A DNA stretch of 10,618 bases. It comes from Flavobacteriales bacterium (GTDB lineage: Bacteria > Bacteroidota > Bacteroidia > Flavobacteriales > Flavobacteriaceae). The DNA is taken from NCBI GenBank assembly GCA_003229235.1, contig QIIH01000148.1, positions 1-10,618 of the forward strand. Reading direction: 5' to 3'. The position numbers and the translations under genes were made by a program. The notes beneath the pieces are model-generated. The model was given only the letters and a program-made list of their open reading frames with translations, was not told the DNA's origin and searched no databases. Below, piece by piece: positions 465 through 10,214 of the stretch (position 1 is its first letter; each line of letters opens with the position of its first letter).

Positions 465-1601
465 ATGCCAAGATGTATAGAGTGGGGCGAAGAACGTCAC
501 CAGGAATGTGAAAGAACCGAAGACCAGGGTTATAATGAATGCGCACGTGAAGAAGACCGCGGATATGCCGATTGCTGCACCTGGTGGCCCTGTAATTGGC
601 TTTGCGACGCATGGGTATGGATAAGCAATGTGGTTTGCGTAAGTTGGACATGGATGTCTAATGTGGTCTGTGTTAGTTGGACTTGGATAAGTACTGCAGC
701 ATGCGTAGCTTGGGATTTTGTGGTCACTATTGTCTCTGCGATTTTAACCACCATAGAATCTATTTTGGGCTGGATTTTATCTGGCGTCGCCGCTATTATT
801 GAACTCATTTTATCTATTCCTGGACTTGGAACCGTATTGAGATGGCTTCTAAATTTGGTCACGTTTTTGGTAGTTTCAATGGTAGCTGTAGGAGATTTAA
901 TACTGGGAGCTGTGGGTATCCGACCCGAAAAAACCCTACGGATTTGCCCAGTGATTTTGCGCGATGAAAATGGCGAACAAACGGCAGAAGTAGAAGGTGT
1001 TGTGGCTGTATTGCAATTGGCGGCCGATGTTTTTAAACGCGATGCCAATATCCGTTTAATTCCCAGCCGCCCATTTAATTACAGCACGGGTTTTGAAGGG
1101 GCTCCGCAAGTAGATGAAAGTTGGATTCATATTGACTCTAGGTCGAGTCCTACGGAGGTTTTAGATGCCGGGGATTCTGTTGCGAATGAATTTGGGATAG
1201 TAGGCAGTATATTACAAATGAAAATGACCAGTTTATGCTTTTATGGTGCCTGGCGTCGTATAACGGGGTTTGGTGCACCAATAACTGTCTTTTTTATACG
1301 AAATACGCTACCTAATAGTTCGGGGCGTTCCCTTTGGATAACGGATTATGTCTTTGTAAATGGAAACACAACAGAGATATTTACGAGTGGTCTTCAAAGA
1401 AACGCCAGAACAGCTGCTCATGAAATTGCTCATTCTTGTTCACTTTGGCACGAATGCATAGACAACGATCCTACTAATTTAATGGGAGTTAGTGGCTCTT
1501 GCGATCCCGTTGGCACCTTAGCAGCAGATACCGACAATCCAATACTATATGATTGGCAAGCTTTACTTATGCGCGGCAGCAAACACGTCTCTTACTTTTA
1601 A
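465..1601 (+). CDS. Metzincin-like metalloprotease with N-terminal Cys/Trp hendecad repeats and hydrophobic middle
   Basis: The product is 378 residues and I do not recognise a named family for the whole protein. Three parts are visible. Residues 4-90 are eight repeats of about 11 residues, each opening with Cys (4, 15, 26, 37, 47, 58, 69, 80); the first three are rich in E, R and D, the last four in paired Trp (50/52, 61/63, 72/74). Residues 84-150 are long hydrophobic or amphipathic stretches that could be several membrane helices. The C-terminal part holds HEIAHSCSLWH (319-329), fitting the metzincin zinc site HExxHxxGxxH except for Ser in place of Gly, followed by NLMG (Met340) at the distance of a Met-turn. 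There is no N-terminal signal peptide: the start is highly charged. ATG at 465 is the first in frame and has an A-rich leader. A gene for a two-span protein follows after 9 bp. Peptidase activity is inferred from the motif only. Confidence 0.8.
   Translation: MPRCIEWGEERHQECERTEDQGYNECAREEDRGYADCCTWWPCNWLCDAWVWISNVVCVSWTWMSNVVCVSWTWISTAACVAWDFVVTIVSAILTTIESILGWILSGVAAIIELILSIPGLGTVLRWLLNLVTFLVVSMVAVGDLILGAVGIRPEKTLRICPVILRDENGEQTAEVEGVVAVLQLAADVFKRDANIRLIPSRPFNYSTGFEGAPQVDESWIHIDSRSSPTEVLDAGDSVANEFGIVGSILQMKMTSLCFYGAWRRITGFGAPITVFFIRNTLPNSSGRSLWITDYVFVNGNTTEIFTSGLQRNARTAAHEIAHSCSLWHECIDNDPTNLMGVSGSCDPVGTLAADTDNPILYDWQALLMRGSKHVSYF
474..734 (+). repeat. Eight tandem hendecad-encoding units (33-bp period)
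   Basis: Codons for Cys recur every 33 bp at residues 4, 15, 26, 37 and again at 47, 58, 69, 80; the fourth unit is one residue short. Units 5-8 begin CDAW, CVSW, CVSW and CVAW, and units 5-7 share WxW spacing. The DNA of units 5-7 (about 603-701) is still visibly similar, with versions of AATGTGGT and AGTTGGAC recurring, which points to expansion by duplication. An 11-residue period equals three helical turns, so a long straight helix or right-handed coiled coil with a Cys/Trp stripe is the natural structural reading. Confidence 0.85.
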
Positions 1602-1610
1602 AATAATACT

Positions 1611-2042
1611 ATGACAAAATTCGAAACTACCATAAACCATCCGGCGCAATTAAATACAATGACCAGCTTTAGCATGGCCCGTAAACGGGGGCTTGGTTTG
1701 CTAAAACTCTCTTCGGAATTTGTCCATAATAAACGTGGAGTTTTAGAGGAGCAGTTAAACAAATACTATTATGCATGCGGTTGTAGCCAAAGCGCAAAAA
1801 TGCTCTTATTCGGCCTCCTTCTTGGAGGGTTGGCGTTATTTTTAAATAACTATTACCCAAGTTTTGCCATTCCTGCCTGGCATTGGACGGTTCCTAGTTT
1901 AGGTATTGCAGGAGCAGTTTTAGGTAAAGTATATGGCCTTAGCCGAGCCAACCACAAATTGCGACAGACTATTAGTGAAATTCAAAGCCTATGGACGGTT
2001 TCTACAAATTCTCATGAAGACGTAGTAGGATATTGTGGTTAG
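1611..2042 (+). CDS. Unknown protein with two predicted transmembrane segments, partner of the metzincin-like gene
   Basis: The product is 143 residues with no recognised family. The N-terminal 60 residues are mostly polar and basic (ARKRG near 23, HNKRG near 39) and end in a YYYACGCSQ patch with two Cys. Two hydrophobic segments follow, about 62-82 (LLFGLLLGGLALFL) and 92-110, joined by a short loop rich in aromatic residues and Pro (YYPSFAIPAWHW). The polar C-terminal tail of about 33 residues could be helical. There is no cleavable signal peptide. With both termini on the same side, the basic N-terminal region suggests they face the cytoplasm. The gene starts 9 bp after the metzincin-like gene and is surely co-transcribed with it. 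Roles as an anchor, chaperone or immunity protein are all possible and none is shown by sequence. Confidence 0.75.
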   Translation: MTKFETTINHPAQLNTMTSFSMARKRGLGLLKLSSEFVHNKRGVLEEQLNKYYYACGCSQSAKMLLFGLLLGGLALFLNNYYPSFAIPAWHWTVPSLGIAGAVLGKVYGLSRANHKLRQTISEIQSLWTVSTNSHEDVVGYCG

Positions 2043-2879: not shown

Positions 2880-4235
2880 CTAATCACTAGCAGTTGGGTT
2901 CAGCCATTTAGTGTTCTTTATGGTCGATTTATGATTTGTGTGCTGTTGTTTAAAATGGTTTTTTCTCATTAGTTTTAATTCTTTTAGCAGCAGTTTAAAA
3001 CTTTTGGCTTCGGATTTCTTCTCTAAACTAAAAGTGACTTTATCTATATCTTTAAGGACGTCTTCTAGTTGTTTCGAACCACTTATACGAACCATTTCTT
3101 GTAACGATTTATTATTGTCAGGTATTCGGTTTAGCCAAGACGGTATTAACTCCAGAAATAAAAAGTAATCGTTTTTTACAATTGCCTTTTTCACCTTTGC
3201 AAATGCATAGGTCTCCGATGCTAAATAGCTATTATATTTTGTAATAATATAAGGAATAACTCTTTTTAAAATTTTGAACAAAAGGAAAAGAATTACTAAA
3301 CCACTAATTAAATATTGAAAAAACAGTTTGGGCTCTATTCCGAAGATTAAAAAAGGGGTTTCTTCTGCCTGGATTGCTTCGACAACTTCCTTTTGAAGTG
3401 ACTTTTTTATACTTGCCAACATGGCTAAATCTGCATTGGGTTTTACCGAAACAACCAAGGAATCAATTTCTTTTTTATAGAACTTTTTAGTGTTGTAGTT
3501 CCAATAGACATACTCAATTGGAGGTATAACAATGTCGCCTTCTTTTTCGAATAAGTAATTAACGGTTTCCGAGCGAGTAGCAGAAACTGCTGCTTTCGAT
3601 TTTCGAGTATTTAGTTGCGGTCGCTTGGGGTAAATACTCACACCTGTGATGCTATCCCATTTTGTGACAGGCAAAAATTCTGATAAAGTACCTTGGGCCG
3701 AACGATATATCGTTCGCTGAACAACATCACCAACTTTAATATCTGATAAAGAAGCAGACCACTTTTCTGATATATTTAAACTAGACGATACCAGCCAATT
3801 ATTAGGGTCGTATCCTGCCGGAATACCTTTAACAGTTAACACTTTTGGCCTGGTAGTAATGGTTCTCTTAATGCCCTTAAAACCTCCGGGCTTAGGAGAT
3901 TCTATATTAATTGATAAACTCGGAATTGTAATTACTCCTTCTTGGGTAGGAAAAACGTTGTAGTAAAAGTCTACGCCCGCATGCGTTTTCCCGCTAAAGT
4001 CTCTGGAGTTACTCAAGGAGCGAAAATAGACTGTCAAAGCGCCGTCTACTTGTATGTTGCCAACATCAATGCCCGATGTAAACCATGTAGAGCTATAAAC
4101 AGACACCGTTAATCTCACTGGCTGCCCAATATAGGCCTCGTCGGTATTCAGCGTAACATAACTAATTAGGTTTTGACCAAACAACGAGAATGTCAGCAGC
4201 CAAAAACACATAAATATCCCAAGCTTTTTTACCAT
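2880..4235 (-). CDS. batD: BatD-like membrane protein
   Basis: The product is 451 residues. Residues 1-20 form a signal peptide (MVKKLGIFMCFWLLTFSLFG) followed by a beta-rich region (about 22-270) that would be periplasmic. Motifs typical of BatD are seen, such as AYIGQPVRLTVSV near 34 and FPTQEGVITIPSLSI near 95, and again FEKEGDIVIPPIEY near 229. A transmembrane helix lies at about 304-325, followed by a basic cytoplasmic tail of about 125 residues. BatD belongs to the Bacteroides aerotolerance (Bat) family; its biochemical role is not settled. The start ATG overlaps the stop of the BatB-BatC gene (shared ATGGTAA), so translation is probably coupled. From memory, many BatD proteins of this phylum are longer, near 550-600 residues, so this is a short version. 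Identification rests on domain layout and operon position. Confidence 0.82.
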   Translation of the reverse strand: MVKKLGIFMCFWLLTFSLFGQNLISYVTLNTDEAYIGQPVRLTVSVYSSTWFTSGIDVGNIQVDGALTVYFRSLSNSRDFSGKTHAGVDFYYNVFPTQEGVITIPSLSINIESPKPGGFKGIKRTITTRPKVLTVKGIPAGYDPNNWLVSSSLNISEKWSASLSDIKVGDVVQRTIYRSAQGTLSEFLPVTKWDSITGVSIYPKRPQLNTRKSKAAVSATRSETVNYLFEKEGDIVIPPIEYVYWNYNTKKFYKKEIDSLVVSVKPNADLAMLASIKKSLQKEVVEAIQAEETPFLIFGIEPKLFFQYLISGLVILFLLFKILKRVIPYIITKYNSYLASETYAFAKVKKAIVKNDYFLFLELIPSWLNRIPDNNKSLQEMVRISGSKQLEDVLKDIDKVTFSLEKKSEAKSFKLLLKELKLMRKNHFKQQHTNHKSTIKNTKWLNPTASD

Positions 4236-5935
4236 TTTTTTGTTGGCTTTTTAACTTCTACTAATTTCTTTCTTATTTGATATCGGAACTTCTTTGTTAA
4301 AAATAGAGCGGGATCGTCGTCTACTTTTCGCATTAAAATGTTCTTTGGTATTTCTCCAGTCCCGGGTTTAAAATCGTCGGGCAATTCGTCTAGTTCTTTT
4401 CCTTTACGGGTATCGGTGTCTACGGTTTCTTCCTTGCGTTTTTTCTCCATGTCCTTTTTAGTCGCTTCTTGCCCGCCGCCACTCAAATCCTCAGGAGATT
4501 TATTTTGCTCGTTCTCTGCTTTCTTTTTTTCTTCGTTTAGCGCGACTTCTTCTGGCGATTGAGAATCTAATCGTTCGATGGCCATGGTGATTTGTTCTAA
4601 ATTGGAATTGGCATTTTGATTAGAGGGGTCTTTTTGTAATACTTCTTTAAAGATTGCCTGCGATTCTGCTAACCGCCCAAGTTTAGCATAAGTTAGCCCT
4701 AAATTATACAAGCCACTAACGGTCGAATCTTGCTCAAAAGCTTTTTGTGCACTCAAAAAGTCGCCTGCCTTATAATAAGCAATGCCTTTGCGCATCGGGT
4801 CGCTGAACTTAGTCGCAGCCTCAAGATAGTTTTTCGCTTCAAATTGTTTTTGAGCCTGATACTCTTGTGTATACCATAAATCGGAAAATGTAAAATCGGG
4901 AATTGTGGTATTGTCATCTTCTGAACAAGAGTTAAATGCAAAAGCGACAATAATAAGATTTAACGCCCACCCTTTTCTAAAACTAAATAAAAACAGAAAC
5001 GACAACGGAAACAGCAACCAATACCCTTCGTCTTTCCAGCTTTCTTCTTCGGCCTCTGGGAGGTCTTCAAAGATTAATTCGTCACTAATTACTTTGGCGA
5101 GATCTTTTACGTCGCTATCGTCTAGCGTCATTTCTACAACCGCTACGTTTTGTATGGCCGCTAGTCTATTTAACTTTTCAAGATCAAGGGCCGAGTTTTC
5201 TCTATAAGACGGAATTGTGGCGCCGCTTTGCGTGGCAAAAGGATAAACGTAAAGCCGCGCATTGTTTTGTTGCATAAAAATACTCACAGCTTCAATGGAA
5301 ACATCGGCCAAATCGTCGGTAATTAATAAGATCTTACCCTCGGCCTTATTGTCGGTAAACAACGTATCGATTCTATTAAATAAAACACCAAACTCTGTTC
5401 CTTTTACGGGCATCATTTGTGGTTTTAAACCATCTAATTGATCCAGAATTATTTTGTAATCGGTTGTAAAAGGAATAGCAATATGAGTAGATCCGGCAAA
5501 GACCATTAAATTAGTTTCTGCTCTGGGGTTTGCGCTTAGTAAATCGTGAATTTTGAATTTTGCACGCTCCAATCTCGTTGGGGTTATGTCTTTTGCTAGC
5601 ATGCTTTGCGACATATCTAAAGCAATAACAAACTGCGATTCAATTTTTTTAACCGGGGTTTTAATTTGATCCCAAGAAGGCCCAAAAAACCCAAAAAACC
5701 CGATCCCCAACATAAGGAGTACCGAAAGCTGAATAAGCCGTGTTTTCCATGCGGTCCCTTTCATGATTACATAAGGGCGTAGATGTTTGGCAACATGTTT
5801 TTTCCAAGAATTTGAATCACGATACAATATAAAGCCTATTAAAATAACAACCAAAACAGGAATTACTACCCACATGTATTCTGTGCGCAGAAAATGGAAC
5901 TCGTCCCAATTGATATTTTTAATTTTTTCTAGCAT
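4229..5935 (-). CDS. BatB-BatC fusion: VWA-domain membrane protein with C-terminal TPR region
   Basis: The product is 568 residues. Two N-terminal membrane helices (about 22-38 and 66-85) precede a von Willebrand A domain with a full MIDAS metal site: DMSQS (107-111), Thr180 in KGTEFG, and Asp207 in LLITDD. A hydrophobic pair at about 305-336 follows, ending FAFNSCSEDD, which resembles a lipoprotein signal peptide with Cys337. Residues about 355-455 form TPR-type helices (AKNYLEAATKF, IAYYKAGDFLSAQKAF, YNLGLTYAKLGRLAESQAIF). The tail from 460 is rich in E, K and D, then basic. In many genomes BatB and BatC are separate genes; here they are one frame. The start is 2 bp after the BatA stop. By family knowledge this is a partner of MoxR-type ATPases in protein-complex handling or stress tolerance. 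Confidence 0.88.
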   Translation of the reverse strand: MLEKIKNINWDEFHFLRTEYMWVVIPVLVVILIGFILYRDSNSWKKHVAKHLRPYVIMKGTAWKTRLIQLSVLLMLGIGFFGFFGPSWDQIKTPVKKIESQFVIALDMSQSMLAKDITPTRLERAKFKIHDLLSANPRAETNLMVFAGSTHIAIPFTTDYKIILDQLDGLKPQMMPVKGTEFGVLFNRIDTLFTDNKAEGKILLITDDLADVSIEAVSIFMQQNNARLYVYPFATQSGATIPSYRENSALDLEKLNRLAAIQNVAVVEMTLDDSDVKDLAKVISDELIFEDLPEAEEESWKDEGYWLLFPLSFLFLFSFRKGWALNLIIVAFAFNSCSEDDNTTIPDFTFSDLWYTQEYQAQKQFEAKNYLEAATKFSDPMRKGIAYYKAGDFLSAQKAFEQDSTVSGLYNLGLTYAKLGRLAESQAIFKEVLQKDPSNQNANSNLEQITMAIERLDSQSPEEVALNEEKKKAENEQNKSPEDLSGGGQEATKKDMEKKRKEETVDTDTRKGKELDELPDDFKPGTGEIPKNILMRKVDDDPALFLTKKFRYQIRKKLVEVKKPTKKW

Positions 5936-5937
5936 TA

Positions 5938-6927
5938 TTAATGAATCAGCCGTTTAAAAATTAATACGAGGTTATTTATCAAAACCAAGAATAGCCCTAA
6001 ACCCAAAGCCGCTCCCAAAGGATAGTAGTATAGCAGTGTTATTGGAGTATACGATTCCTCTTCGTATTCTATGGGTTCGAGTGTGTCCAGTTCGGCGTAG
6101 ATTTTTTCAAGTTCTTGAGCATCGATTGCTCTAAAATATTTTCCGCCAGTTAGCTCGGCAATTTCGATTAATGTTCTTTCGTCTAAATCTGAGGAACTGC
6201 TACCAGGATTGCCAATACCGATAGTGTAAATTATAGTAGAATCTTTTTTTGCCATGTTTGCGGCGTCAAGCGGTAAAATTTCTGTCCCACTATCGACTCC
6301 GTCTGTCAGAAGCAGCATCACTTTGCTCTGAATGGTATCTCTTTCGAAGAGGTCCATCCCTTTTACGATGGCCTTACCTATGTTAGTCATTTGCCCTGCC
6401 ATTCCTACATCGGCTTCGTCAAGCATTGTTTTAACCGTTTTAAGGTCTGTAGTAAATGGTGCTTGTACATAGGCATTACTAGCGAAAAACACTAAGCCCA
6501 TTTTGTCGCTTTCTCTCCTGATAATAAAATCTCCCATTATATTTTTAACTCCCTCCCAACGCGTTACTCGCTTACCATCAGTAACCCAATCATTTTTTGC
6601 CATACTAAACGACAAATCGGCTAGAATTAAAAAGTTGCGCGATGTTTTTATCTTTTTTTCAGGTTTACCAATAAGCTCTGGAGAAGCCATTGCCAGGATT
6701 AGTAACAGCCAAATGAGATACATAAAAACCGATATATACCAGCTTCTTTTTTTGATATACGAGGCTTTTTTTGGTTTTTGCTTAGATACAGTAGCGGCTG
6801 CATTGAAGTAAGGATATATTAAGGCTGCGCTGCGGTTTTTAATAGCAGGCAACAACCAATAGACAAGAAATGGTAGTGCTGCCAAAAAAGCAACATAAGG
6901 ATATGCAAATTGAAAGTTTTCAGGCAT
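5938..6927 (-). CDS. batA: BatA: VWA-domain membrane protein
   Basis: The product is 329 residues, the usual BatA length. It opens with MPENFQFAYPYVAFLAALPF and membrane helices at about 9-28 and 63-83, the second ending in the characteristic ASPELIGK. A von Willebrand A domain follows with a complete MIDAS: DLSFS (104-108), Thr181 in QMTNIG and Asp209 in LLLTDGVDSG. Later parts are also typical (YTIGIGNPG, TGGKYFRA). The C-terminal helix at about 297-324 returns the chain to the membrane, so the VWA domain is held between two anchors. The start ATG lies inside the end of the DUF4381 gene (8-bp overlap) and the stop is 2 bp before BatB-BatC, consistent with coupled translation. The identification is secure; the cellular substrate is unknown. 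Confidence 0.93.
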   Translation of the reverse strand: MPENFQFAYPYVAFLAALPFLVYWLLPAIKNRSAALIYPYFNAAATVSKQKPKKASYIKKRSWYISVFMYLIWLLLILAMASPELIGKPEKKIKTSRNFLILADLSFSMAKNDWVTDGKRVTRWEGVKNIMGDFIIRRESDKMGLVFFASNAYVQAPFTTDLKTVKTMLDEADVGMAGQMTNIGKAIVKGMDLFERDTIQSKVMLLLTDGVDSGTEILPLDAANMAKKDSTIIYTIGIGNPGSSSSDLDERTLIEIAELTGGKYFRAIDAQELEKIYAELDTLEPIEYEEESYTPITLLYYYPLGAALGLGLFLVLINNLVLIFKRLIH

Positions 6928-7393
6928 GCTTTTTTATCCAATTTATGCTCATGGCTGCAAATTCGTTTATAGTAAAACTGTCGTTCTCGTTAAACTCATT
7001 TTTGTAAACAGCACTAGCAATTACATCGTGATGCCTACTAAAAGAAGGTTGCTTAATTTTATTATCCAAAAAAAGAAGCCAGCCTTTTCCTTCTAAAGAA
7101 GCCACCGTTTTTCTGTCATAAGATTGTAAGGCAGTTTGCTTTAACTGGAACATAATTTGAGAGATTAAAAAGCTCATCGAACTTTTATTGTCCTGCGCTA
7201 GGTCTTCAATTATCGAAACAGCTTCTCTTCTGTAGGCCTTCTTTTTATAACCCAAGTAATATTTATAGACCATATAGCCCAATAAGAAAAACAACATAAT
7301 AAAGAGTATTTTCCAGCCTATCGTGTCTGTGGTAAATTGTACCGGAACAGCGTCGATAATTGGGTTTAACTGTATGTCTTGGTCTTGTTGCAC
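6920..7393 (-). CDS. DUF4381-type single-span membrane protein of the Bat operon
   Basis: The frame is open further upstream, with a possible TTG start at 7430-7432 that would overlap DUF58 by 29 bp. I prefer GTG at 7391-7393, which sits 10 bp after the DUF58 stop, is preceded by a weak TAGGGC purine stretch, and gives 157 residues opening QQDQDIQLNPIIDAVP. That matches the family's beginning (D-I-x-L-P-x-P-I ahead of a Trp-containing membrane segment). There is no ATG until deep in the membrane helix. One transmembrane helix lies at about 26-47, then a basic stretch (YKKKAYRREA) and a helical cytoplasmic domain with GKGWLLFLDN. Proteins of this type sit between DUF58 and BatA in MoxR/VWA operons; their role is not defined. 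The end overlaps the BatA start by 8 bp. Confidence 0.8.
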   Translation of the reverse strand: MQQDQDIQLNPIIDAVPVQFTTDTIGWKILFIMLFFLLGYMVYKYYLGYKKKAYRREAVSIIEDLAQDNKSSMSFLISQIMFQLKQTALQSYDRKTVASLEGKGWLLFLDNKIKQPSFSRHHDVIASAVYKNEFNENDSFTINEFAAMSINWIKKHA

Positions 7394-7403
7394 TTGCCCT
7401 AGA

Positions 7404-8342
7404 TTATTGTTTATAATTACTAAATACCTCAATCAATTGCTCTTGGATGGGATCTATTGTATTTACTTTAAAAATGTTGATTTTATATTTTTCTAACTCC
7501 GATTTAAACCTCTTGTAATTATCCTCATAGGAGGCCTTGAGCTTCTCTTTGAGCTGTCTGTTTTTGACATTCAAGTTAATTTGATATGTCTTATTGGATA
7601 CAACTAATTTCTCTGACGGGAGGCGCTCTTCTAAGGGGTCATACACCTTAATTAAGACTACATCATTATGGAGAGCCAACTGGCTTAAGTATTGTAACAC
7701 AGCCTTATTGTATCTGTGAAAATCGCTAATAATAAAAACTACAAAATCGTGCGTAACAACATTGTTTATTTTGGCAATTACTTCGGGTAGAGATTTTTCG
7801 AAATCGAAGGTTTTGGGGTTGTAAATAGACCGATTCGCATCTACAATTTTCTGTAAAAAATAAATAATGTTTCTCGAGTCGCGCTTAGGAGTTACTAAAT
7901 CGTAATTATCGCCCGTAAAAACCATCCCACCGATTCGGTCGCCTTTCTTTTTAATCTTATGCGCAATAATAGAAGCCAATTCGCCAGCTATAACAGCCTT
8001 TGTTTTATTCTGTGACCCAAAGCCCATAGTAGGAGATTGGTCTACAAAAATAAACGCTGGTTTCTCCTTTTCCTCAGTAAAGACCTTGGTGTGAGTTTTA
8101 CCCGTTTTTGCGGTAACGTTCCAGTCTATATTTCTAATGTCGTCGCCAATAACATAGGGTCTAGCTTCTTCGAAATCTAATCCTCTACCACGTAGTCTAG
8201 AAGCGTATCTCCCAGACAAAACACTATTAGATTTTTTTTTGCCTGTTCCTAAATTGACAACCGAACTAAACCACTCAAATTTTAGTAAATTTTCGAGGGT
8301 AAGAAATATTTTGGAATCCTTATTAGATTTTTTCGATTTCAT
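7404..8342 (-). CDS. DUF58 domain protein (VWA-like) of the MoxR-Bat operon
   Basis: The product is 312 residues, cytoplasmic, with no membrane segment. Residues 51-81 hold the DUF58 signature RGRGLDFEEARPYVIGDD followed by IRNIDWNVTAKTG, and TKVFTEEKE comes soon after. The second half has a VWA-like fold in which the first MIDAS loop reads DQSPT (101-105), and SDFHR near 206 occupies the later acidic loop. DUF58 proteins almost always sit next to a MoxR ATPase and are thought to be its partner or adaptor. The start ATG lies 11 bp after the MoxR stop and the stop is 10 bp before the preferred GTG of the next gene. Assignment is secure by motif and context; function is inferred. Confidence 0.93.
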   Translation of the reverse strand: MKSKKSNKDSKIFLTLENLLKFEWFSSVVNLGTGKKKSNSVLSGRYASRLRGRGLDFEEARPYVIGDDIRNIDWNVTAKTGKTHTKVFTEEKEKPAFIFVDQSPTMGFGSQNKTKAVIAGELASIIAHKIKKKGDRIGGMVFTGDNYDLVTPKRDSRNIIYFLQKIVDANRSIYNPKTFDFEKSLPEVIAKINNVVTHDFVVFIISDFHRYNKAVLQYLSQLALHNDVVLIKVYDPLEERLPSEKLVVSNKTYQINLNVKNRQLKEKLKASYEDNYKRFKSELEKYKINIFKVNTIDPIQEQLIEVFSNYKQ

Positions 8343-8353
8343 TCATGGGCGAA

Positions 8354-9322
8354 TTAGGCTACCACGGCTACTACTTCAATTATTTTGTCAATTATTTGAT
8401 CTGTTGTAACACCTTCGGCTCTGCCTTTATAACTCAAGGCAATTCTATGGCGCAATACATCTTTGCAAATAAGGTGAATGTCTTCTGGAGCTACATAATC
8501 TCTCCCTTGCATCCAGGCGTTTGTTCTGCTACAACGATCTAATGCGATAGTGCCTCTAGGGCTTGCACCAAAGTCGATTAACTTGGCTAACTCGGTGTCA
8601 AATTTCTCGGGATACCGCGTGGCCGAAATCAAACTAACCATGTATTTTTCGATGTCTTCTGTTACTTTGATATTCGCAATTTCTTTTCGAGCATCAAAAA
8701 TTGCCTGTTGTGAAATGGTCTTTAATGAGGGTTTGTTTTTTGTTTTTGACGCTTCATTTTTATTAAGACGCATAATTTCCAGTTCGGCATTGTCGTCTGG
8801 ATAATCAATAATGGTATGAATCAAAAAGCGATCCATTTGAGCTTCAGGCAGCGGATAAGTTCCCTCTTGTTCGATCGGGTTTTGCGTTGCCATAACCATA
8901 AACAAATCGTCCATCTTATAGGTTTTACCCGAAACGGTAACCTGCCGCTCTTCCATAGCCTCGAGTAACGCAGACTGTACTTTTGCTGGAGCCCTGTTAA
9001 TTTCGTCTGCGAGAATTAGATTGCTAAAAATAGGACCTTTTTGAAACACAAATTTCTCTTTTTCGTTTGGCACATAAATTTCTGTACCTGTAATATCCGA
9101 CGGCAGCAGATCTGGTGTAAATTGTATTCTACTCAAGCCGCAATCCAAATTTTTTGCCAAGGCTTTTATTGCTCTTGTTTTTGCCAAACCAGGCAAACCC
9201 TCCAACAACATATTACCATCTGCTAGCAATGCCAAAATGATGCTGTCAATGAGCTGCGCTTGTCCAATAATGGACATAGACATTTGTTCTTTTAAAGCTG
9301 TAATCGATTCAAATGGAGACAT
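8354..9322 (-). CDS. moxR: MoxR-family AAA+ ATPase
   Basis: The product is 322 residues, the usual MoxR size. In order: Walker A GLPGLAKT (42-49), the pre-Walker B insert FTPDLLPSDITG, Walker B LILADEINRAP with Asp106 and Glu107, sensor 1 ATQNP (Asn148), arginine finger AQMDRF (Arg165), and sensor 2 GASPRG (Arg256) in the lid. MoxR proteins are ATP-driven chaperone-like machines that act with VWA-domain partners, here DUF58 and the BatA and BatB proteins downstream. It is the first gene of the operon, with a 133-bp gap to the previous gene, so the operon promoter should lie just upstream. The start ATG has no clear Shine-Dalgarno, as usual in this phylum. Confidence 0.96.
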   Translation of the reverse strand: MSPFESITALKEQMSMSIIGQAQLIDSIILALLADGNMLLEGLPGLAKTRAIKALAKNLDCGLSRIQFTPDLLPSDITGTEIYVPNEKEKFVFQKGPIFSNLILADEINRAPAKVQSALLEAMEERQVTVSGKTYKMDDLFMVMATQNPIEQEGTYPLPEAQMDRFLIHTIIDYPDDNAELEIMRLNKNEASKTKNKPSLKTISQQAIFDARKEIANIKVTEDIEKYMVSLISATRYPEKFDTELAKLIDFGASPRGTIALDRCSRTNAWMQGRDYVAPEDIHLICKDVLRHRIALSYKGRAEGVTTDQIIDKIIEVVAVVA

Positions 9323-9455: not shown

Positions 9456-10094
9456 TTAAATATTTGGGAACAGATCCTTTGCTCTTTTTTTCATCTCAGC
9501 AGCAATCTCGCGACCATCTTCGTCTTGACCTTTAAGCTTCTCAATAATATTTTGATAGCTCTCTTCGTCTTTTTCTTGACTTAATTTAAAAACAGTGTCA
9601 ATTTTTATTACCTCAATTTCGAAAGCCACGATCATGTGCATTACTCTCTTTTTAAAGTCTGCAGGCAGGTTGTCATATACTGTTGAAGACTCTTGGTTGT
9701 ACCCTTCAAAATGTAGTGATGTCATTTTAAGTATATCTTCTAGCGCAGCATCGTCTAAAAACTTGATGATTCCTTTTGCGTGTACACTCATGTAGTTCCA
9801 GGTAGACGGGCTATTCGGGTTGCTGTACCAGGTACCGCTTACATAGGTATGCCTGCCTGTAAAAACAGCAAGCACATTTTGGTTATGTAAAAAAGCTTTA
9901 TGGTGGTCAGAATTTTTCATAATATGCCCTCGCAACACTTTTTTACCATCCTTATCTTCAATAAAAACGGGCAATTGAGTTACCACAGGGCAGTTATCAG
10001 AATCACATCCCGTTAAAAAAGCAAAGGGGTACTTTTCGACGAATTCTTTAACGGTCTGTTCGTCTTTTTCTTTGTGATATGGGAAATTGTACAT
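9456..10094 (-). CDS. PaiB-family FMN-binding split-barrel protein
   Basis: From ATG at 10092-10094 the product is 212 residues. This start is chosen because the family opens with a short M-Y-x-P-x-H/Y stretch (here MYNFPYHKEKDEQTVKEF); a longer frame to 10169 adds 25 residues with no family character. Family marks in order are YPFAFLTG (22-29), LRGHIMKNSDHHKAF (54-68, usually G-H-x-A-R-x-N), TGRHTYVSGTWY (79-90, usually GPHAYVSPSWY), STWNYMSVHAKG (97-108) and FKLSQEKDEESY (169-180). PaiB was described in Bacillus as a negative transcriptional regulator; related proteins bind FMN or heme and may be oxidoreductases. The gene lies 120 bp after the hydrolase gene, probably with its own promoter. 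The family call is secure; the biological role is open. Confidence 0.9.
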   Translation of the reverse strand: MYNFPYHKEKDEQTVKEFVEKYPFAFLTGCDSDNCPVVTQLPVFIEDKDGKKVLRGHIMKNSDHHKAFLHNQNVLAVFTGRHTYVSGTWYSNPNSPSTWNYMSVHAKGIIKFLDDAALEDILKMTSLHFEGYNQESSTVYDNLPADFKKRVMHMIVAFEIEVIKIDTVFKLSQEKDEESYQNIIEKLKGQDEDGREIAAEMKKRAKDLFPNI

Positions 10095-10214
10095 TCGTTT
10101 AGATATTGTATTAGCGCAGTATTGCGCAGCGTTACCAAATGTCCTGCTTACATTAGTCAACCAACCCAAAGGGCAGCACTAATTAGCGTTTTTAAAACTA
10201 GAAAAACAAGCCCA

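Follow-up and report, generated by a model that had tools for sequence, protein, structure and literature searches.

Inter-helix cysteine pairs are known in helical hairpins, among them the CHCH proteins and the alpha-hairpinins. The substrates of CHCHD4/Mia40 fold as antiparallel helical hairpins and have no N-terminal signal that is cleaved, and the alpha-hairpinins of plants are short, free defence peptides in which two helices are linked by inter-helix disulfides, two in number. In excerpts of two papers, twin CX9C/CHCH is described as a helix-coil motif held by two disulfides, with a CPC-motif oxidoreductase that oxidizes its substrates (PMC12114033, PMC4951193); an excerpt of a third names the alpha-hairpinin family (PMC7191063).

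Here, we analyze a stretch of 10,618 nucleotides from a Flavobacteriales bacterium (contig QIIH01000148.1), which we refer to as the window. It contains a gene whose product is predicted to join a cysteine-rich helical hairpin to a metalloprotease domain (Table 1). The predicted helices and the mirrored, coupled arms of this protein agree with a CHCH-like antiparallel hairpin whose cysteines would face each other across the arms. Unlike the two CX9C motifs of CHCH proteins, the hairpin has CX10C spacing, three times per arm in the window protein; its 3 to 8 rungs vary in number on both arms, the arms are strongly asymmetric, and the module is bacterial and fused to enzymes. The alpha-hairpinins have no hendecad ladder and no enzyme, and the likeness to them lies in the putative inter-helix disulfides. 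In a Foldseek search with the isolated hairpin module, the matches listed were generic long helices only, with helical hairpins of the ESCRT-III/Vipp1/PspA and BAR kinds among the top-ranked rows.

We searched Pfam, NCBIfam, PDB, and PHROGs (PHROGs with the window protein and its partner only). Pfam, NCBIfam, and PDB yielded no relative of the hairpin, with no sequence match among PDB chains at E ≤ 1, and an NCBIfam scan of ten hairpin proteins with other enzymes found no hairpin family. A search of open-licence literature found no earlier description of the hairpin domain at the level of abstracts. No described domain that we found combines a ladder of variable length with asymmetric arms and occurrence on many enzymes; we therefore regard the module as categorically new at the domain level, with a putative function.

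Table 1. Features of the hairpin metalloprotease gene and the adjoining partner gene, in window coordinates
Feature	Position	Strand	Basis
Hairpin metalloprotease gene, 378 aa	465..1601	+	Open frame; 252 homologs at E ≤ 1e-3
Charged N-arm helix, residues 3-35; Cys 4, 15, 26 (37 just past its end)	471..569	+	AF2 helix; unit consensus
Turn, residues 37-47, CC-x4-C-x3-C; putative rung C37-C47 and putative inner pair C38-C43	573..605	+	C38/C43 co-presence
Trp/Val W-arm, residues 47-80; Cys 47, 58, 69, 80	603..704	+	Unit consensus; mirrored arms
Hydrophobic helices, residues 81-149, extending the W-arm helix; conserved E98, P119	705..911	+	AF2
Metzincin-type metalloprotease domain, residues 152-378	918..1598	+	Predicted fold
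Zinc-binding motif H319-E-x2-H323-x5-H329	1419..1451	+	H319, E320, H323, H329 invariant, 36 rows
Met-turn N338-L-M340	1476..1484	+	M340 invariant, N338 at least 90%, 36 rows
Partner gene, 143 aa; hydrophobic part after ACGC; C-terminal Cys-Gly	1611..2042	+	Directly downstream in 9/9 metzincin loci
Partner ACGC motif, residues 55-58	1773..1784	+	A55, C56, C58 invariant in 9; ACGC in distant tenth
Partner C-terminal Cys-Gly	2034..2039	+	Invariant 9/9; absent from distant tenth

Cysteine pattern and predicted topology of the hairpin

Among the 120 matches listed of 252, homologs cover 83 to 100% of the window protein at 45 to 100% identity, and their labels are absent or read "hypothetical protein". 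Residues 1 to 85 hold cysteines at positions 4, 15, 26, 37, 38, 43, 47, 58, 69, and 80, in steps of 11, 11, 11, then 1, 5, 4, then 11, 11, 11; the sole 10-residue step runs from C37 to C47. Six cysteine pairs are at distance 11, a number equalled in 8 of 200,000 composition-preserving shuffles of these residues. The positions mirror each other about the turn (4 + 80 = 15 + 69 = 26 + 58 = 37 + 47 = 84), with the inner pair C38/C43 off the mirror axis (38 + 43 = 81). A preliminary description made from the window alone had reported eight cysteines at exact 11-residue steps, a first run rich in E, D, and R, and WxW pairs in register with the second run (50/52, 61/63, and 72/74), and each of these observations is confirmed. 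Its eight cysteine positions were right, but it overlooked C38 and C43. Its proposal that Cys/Trp hendecads, helical by prediction, run into a hydrophobic middle and then a protease is also supported, and its impression that such 11-mers occur in unannotated bacterial proteins is borne out by many relatives, with 252 matches to the full protein and 154 to an N-terminal query.

In the AF2 model of the full protein (mean pLDDT 89, pTM 0.83), a helix at residues 3 to 35 is followed by a turn, a helix at 43 to 116, and downstream helices at 121 to 140 and 142 to 149. The hairpin module modeled alone is of lower confidence (pLDDT 76, pTM 0.41), with the downstream part as one helix at 121 to 149. 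E98 and P119 are invariant (36 rows). One long helix had been expected from the preliminary description, and this holds only for the W-arm, where helix 43-116 is continuous and increasingly hydrophobic; no predicted helix spans all eight units, which are broken at residues 36 to 42, and the two arms are coupled. We reject a single continuous amphipathic helix through the eight units on the basis of the AF2 turn and the mirrored indels.

The coupling of the arms is evident from the step lists, which are the same left and right of the turn in 125 of 128 rows (the 120 listed matches plus 8 loci, three of which, L004, L005, and L010, each repeat a match). These rows follow five step patterns, with three, four, or five units per side or with 7-step units beside the turn on both sides; the patterns number seven when two kinds of turn are counted. 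The exceptions are P0010 (4 versus 5 units), P0093, which starts inside the N-arm, and P0120, which starts inside the W-arm; the last two are probably truncated or mis-called. On a FastTree tree of the protease domain only (123 rows, omitting P0093, P0120, and the three repeats), we counted 18 pattern changes for the N-arm, 19 for the W-arm, and 19 for the joint label, where the unlinked maximum is 37. Pattern 11-11-11 gave 8 independent pairs on supported branches; 200 random pairings were drawn, and in 199 of them all pairs changed in the same direction on both arms (median p 0.008). The remaining four patterns gave 5, 3, 3, and 2 pairs, which were concordant in all or nearly all pairings and are too few for significance. 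Given that units are gained or lost jointly on both arms, the arms appear to run antiparallel. We consider it highly probable, from sequence and model together, that the eight Cys-led units are the mirror arms of an antiparallel hairpin with paired cysteine rungs.

A second search, directed at longer proteins and queried with an N-terminal segment (156 residues) from one member of the family, returned 154 proteins at E ≤ 1e-3; of the 120 listed, P0058 and P0101 were already known members, leaving 118 new proteins. Under the final counting rule, which was chosen with earlier outcomes known, the two arms have equal rung counts in 112 of the 118 (in 41 by strict counting and in another 71 once an end rung with an 8- or 9-residue step is included), unequal counts in 5 (P0147, P0150, P0199, P0241, and P0252), and one protein (P0151) is unparsed. 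P0147, P0199, and P0241 hold 8- or 10-residue steps that this rule skips. Under an earlier rule, 90 of 118 proteins had equal counts and 22 differed by one, and the strictest rule (11- and 7-steps only, overlapping turns counted) gave 39 of 133; the gap between rules is mostly the end rung. Over both protein sets, the rung number ranges from 3 to 8.

Pairing of the cysteines

We counted the joint presence of cysteines in 123 rows, irrespective of the relatedness of the rows. C38 and C43 are both present in 120 rows and both absent in 3, with neither ever found alone. For C26 and C58, both are present in 117 rows and neither in 5, with C58 alone in one and C26 alone in none; the absences are gaps, mostly from loss of a whole unit. 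Two pairs in the protease domain behave similarly: C237 and C288 (both in 106 rows, neither in 17, one only in none; the window protein lacks both) and C331 and C346 (both in 114, neither in 8, C331 alone in one, C346 alone in none). C161 and C258 are invariant, and weaker associations link 187 with 194 and 275 with both 237 and 288. Because the variable cysteines 275 (85 of 123 rows) and 325 (88 of 123) have no clear partner, part of the cysteine set is left unexplained. Co-loss of this kind is the trace expected of disulfides, from which we infer the bonds, and it points to a ladder of 3 to 8 inter-helix disulfides joining the charged arm to the Trp/Val arm.

If the protein is cytosolic, the ladder might instead be thiols or bind metal. 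A rod in which the cysteine pairs hold a thiophilic metal such as Cu(I) rather than forming disulfides would resemble the cysteine-lined helical copper-storage proteins. The helix interface of the hairpin is lined by cysteines, and the turn, CC-x4-C-x3-C, could form a four-Cys site; however, the 3 of 123 rows that lose C38 and C43 together keep C37, which shows that a set of four cysteines is not obligatory at the turn. The rung spacing of 11 residues (about 16 Å) and the two protease-domain pairs, co-lost as disulfides would be, also argue against a metal rod, which we regard as very unlikely.

The metzincin-type protease domain

The C-terminal domain looks like a metzincin metalloprotease, given a model with the metzincin fold and the motif HExxHxxxxxH, which is present in 120 of the 120 matches listed. 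Adamalysin, pappalysin, and fragilysin (Pfam PF13688/PF13583/PF05572) have in common with it the C-terminal fold, this motif, and the Met-turn. It differs from metzincins in being joined to the hairpin module and in the rarity of the motif's glycine: position 8 of HExxHxxGxxH is Ser in the window protein, and among the 120 matches listed it is N in 57, M in 31, L in 14, S in 6, G in 6, T in 4, I in 1, and Q in 1. The window protein had no match in NCBIfam. It had weak Pfam matches (DisA, E 0.6; Reprolysin_5, E 1.6; TrbL_3, E 4.7) and weak PHROGs matches (three tail families plus one membrane protein, with E 0.0099 at best). These mostly cover the hydrophobic part and were set aside; the exception is Reprolysin_5, which agrees with the fold.

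Mobility and distribution of the module

Among the matches listed in the second search, precomputed Pfam domains fused to the hairpin are PF04185 (phospholipase C type), PF03009 (GDPD), PF00264 (tyrosinase), PF07250/PF09118/PF07646/PF01344 (galactose or glyoxal oxidase and kelch), PF00082 (subtilase), PF00232 (GH1), PF04909 (amidohydrolase), PF09471 (M64), and PF14751; P0147 also bears PF13688. A Pfam rescan of ten proteins reproduced PF14751, PF04909, PF00082, PF00232, and PF09471, and the remaining five proteins gave no family. In NCBIfam, hairpin proteins match the phospholipase C, GDPD, and tyrosinase models at scores below the cut-offs. The four-Cys turn is found in 232 of 238 proteins; 179 have it inside the first 130 residues and 53 further along. 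The hairpin is located at the N terminus, in the middle, or at the C terminus of unrelated enzymes. Judged by sequence, one hairpin domain is joined to eight Pfam enzyme groups besides the metzincin and is a mobile module; the joining of one conserved domain to a range of unrelated enzymes is a trait of polymorphic delivery modules. Separately, we observed five proteins of about 450 residues (P0153, P0158, P0161, P0168, and P0189) that start with MGA[GW]C, contain a motif resembling HExxH, and carry the hairpin at the C terminus; the member scanned, P0153, matched neither Pfam nor NCBIfam.

A pattern scan in which the family alignment was run against 84,980 species genomes, a method that can miss relatives, gave 8 loci confirmed by tblastn, in records labeled Bacteroidetes, Pseudolabrys, Desulfobulbaceae, Armatimonadota, Rhizobium, Nitrospirae, Microvirga, and Calditrichota; the same scan with a single protein gave no loci. 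This thin scatter of the protease form over several phyla suggests horizontal transfer. In each of 9 genomes we found a single hairpin gene, and a second, weak match in the window's genome had E 0.31. Among 395 Bacteroidota genomes, we count the hairpin in one, that of the window, and scans of 43, 345, and 40 genomes found it only in the centre genome of each draw. Weak hairpin matches in genomes G152 and G192 were rejected after three-frame translation of the matching strand, which gave stops and no repeat. Phage or plasmid cargo was likewise rejected: neither the 50,697 phage records nor the 72,556 plasmid records gave a match (at E 0.01 and at E 0.001); in viral contigs, 35 and 75 pattern matches were obtained and 0 were confirmed.

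We scored 232 proteins for an obvious signal peptide, defined as an 11-residue window of mean KD >2.0 in the first 35 residues, and none had one; this check is a crude hydrophobicity threshold rather than a signal-peptide predictor, and some starts are gene calls as given. The absence of an obvious signal in all 232 would suit a secretion or loading tag, in which the hairpin directs the enzyme to export machinery, whether contractile injection, type VI, type IX, or another route, and the partner is an adaptor or immunity protein, as would the many different enzymes that carry one module. The preliminary description had suggested examining the neighborhoods for contractile injection systems. 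In the window's own genome, contig C103 holds a phage-type sheath gene (PF17482/PF04984) beside a T4 gp19-like tube gene (PF06841) (locus L011, 1933-4020, minus strand), and their presence together indicates that this genome carries some contractile tail-like system. However, the sheath family PF04984 is present in only 2 of 9 genomes, including the window's, ORFs around the 8 loci, read by eye, show no injection genes, and a single hairpin gene per genome is few for a tag. The link to contractile injection is thus weak, and we rate the secretion tag as improbable.

The remaining surroundings are recorded for completeness. The minus strand of the window at 2880-9322 encodes a MoxR AAA ATPase, DUF58, two VWA proteins (one with TPR), and BatD, which looks like an ordinary Bat-type operon; ORF 6920-7432 sits among these Bat-type genes. 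At 9456-10169 (minus strand) is an FMN-binding domain protein (PF04299) that we take to be PaiB-like. In Microvirga rosea (locus L009, 2220-5380), the cassette is followed by a 290-residue ORF and then a protein with an Exo_endo_phos domain.

Chemistry of the arms and putative membrane docking

The arms differ in their consensus units, which derive from related and thus not independent proteins. The N-arm consensus is C-T-Q/E-T-R/E-D-E/Q-G-Y-N-E (683 units), with a net charge of -1.5 per unit, and the W-arm consensus is C-V-A-W-T-W-V-S-N-I-V (762 units), which is near neutral. With faces assigned by the angle of an 11/3 helix, the positions opposite the cysteine are V, W, I, A, V/I, and V in the W-arm and mostly polar in the N-arm. 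Because the outer face of the W-arm is hydrophobic and that of the N-arm mostly polar, the paired hairpin would be a two-faced board.

We propose that the N-arm is stapled to the W-arm by C4-C80, C15-C69, C26-C58, and C37-C47, plus C38-C43 at the turn. The stapled hairpin would be a rigid board, extendable by units, with one face hydrophilic and the other very hydrophobic, and the hydrophobic W-face would dock a leaderless enzyme on, or partly in, the membrane. Trp is a typical interface residue. Docking is favored by the lipid-acting enzymes among the cargo, and a board lying in the plane of the membrane tolerates any length; a fixed-length transmembrane pore is disfavored by the variation in rung number from 3 to 8. 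We put forward membrane docking tentatively, as a function that falls a little short of probable.

The same variation suits a spacer better than a membrane-spanning segment, and the frequent glycine (78%) and tyrosine (74%) in N-arm units hint at closely packed helices. Both features would fit a stalk or oligomer core in which the W-faces pack in a multimer, the charged N-arms form its jacket, the ladder acts as a rigid, length-adjustable spacer, and only residues 81 to 149 meet the membrane. This arrangement is unlikely in our judgment: no oligomer is known, and the hairpin occupies varied positions in unrelated enzymes, some of which, read by eye, are without the metzincin-type hydrophobic stretch.

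The partner gene

Under the docking reading, a small membrane-type partner encoded by the adjoining gene would help to export, oxidize, or seat the hairpin protein. The partner is 140 to 152 residues long, contains ACxC, and begins 9 to 18 bases after the protease gene in 9 of 9 loci (start codons as taken), with one copy per genome in 9 of 9 genomes. A tenth genome, G621, was found via the phylum of the Microvirga genome, in which the hairpin profile and the partner profile pick out an identical pair among 398 genomes, a pair that includes the centre genome of the draw. G621 has a different hairpin protease, with seven cysteines per arm, a turn of 11, and a reprolysin match below the Pfam cut-off; it is followed by a 148-residue gene and then a distant partner (E 2e-10). 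This intervening 148-residue gene (locus L025, 8117-8563, minus strand) is unannotated and has no Pfam match at E ≤ 0.01.

A simple window found two hydrophobic segments in 8 of 10 partners and one in 2 of 10, including the window's. The 8 two-segment partners have 3 to 5 K/R per flank and 0 to 1 in the loop, with D/E offsetting the K/R on the N-terminal side. By the positive-inside rule, both ends of these partners are probably cytoplasmic, which does not favor a role as a periplasmic oxidase. The cysteines of the CxC motif, C56 and C58, are invariant in nine partners, and the tenth has ACGC. Pfam searches gave no sign of a known oxidoreductase fold or cofactor site: the window's partner has no match at E ≤ 1, and among the nine partners, 13 Pfam families are matched by one partner each (best E 0.0077), and none is named as an oxidoreductase. 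The partner may oxidize, export, seat, or neutralize the hairpin protein. Because the neighborhoods read cover two metalloprotease architectures only, it may also serve the protease (e.g., as immunity or inhibitor) rather than the hairpin.

A bolder reading, which we consider a long shot, is that the hairpin and the ACxC membrane partner constitute a bacterial oxidation-driven pathway for both export and anchoring of leaderless enzymes. Reduced, flexible arms would enter or cross the membrane, the CxC of the partner would oxidize them rung by rung, and closure of the ladder would lock the enzyme on the far side, akin to the mitochondrial Mia40 relay. If this is true, the rung number would set the strength of the lock. 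Overall, the reading that we prefer, and whose prospects we see as evenly poised, is an extendable, disulfide-laddered hairpin that is mobile on unrelated, extracellular-type enzymes with no obvious signal peptide and docks them to the membrane with the assistance of the partner.

Significance of the module

A button-row domain with coupled arms is a rare case in which the sequence by itself reveals both topology and pairing, and a stapled board of adjustable length would be a useful part for protein design. At least nine enzyme classes carry the hairpin, yet it is absent from the family libraries searched. It may represent a shared means of placing leaderless enzymes that has been overlooked so far.
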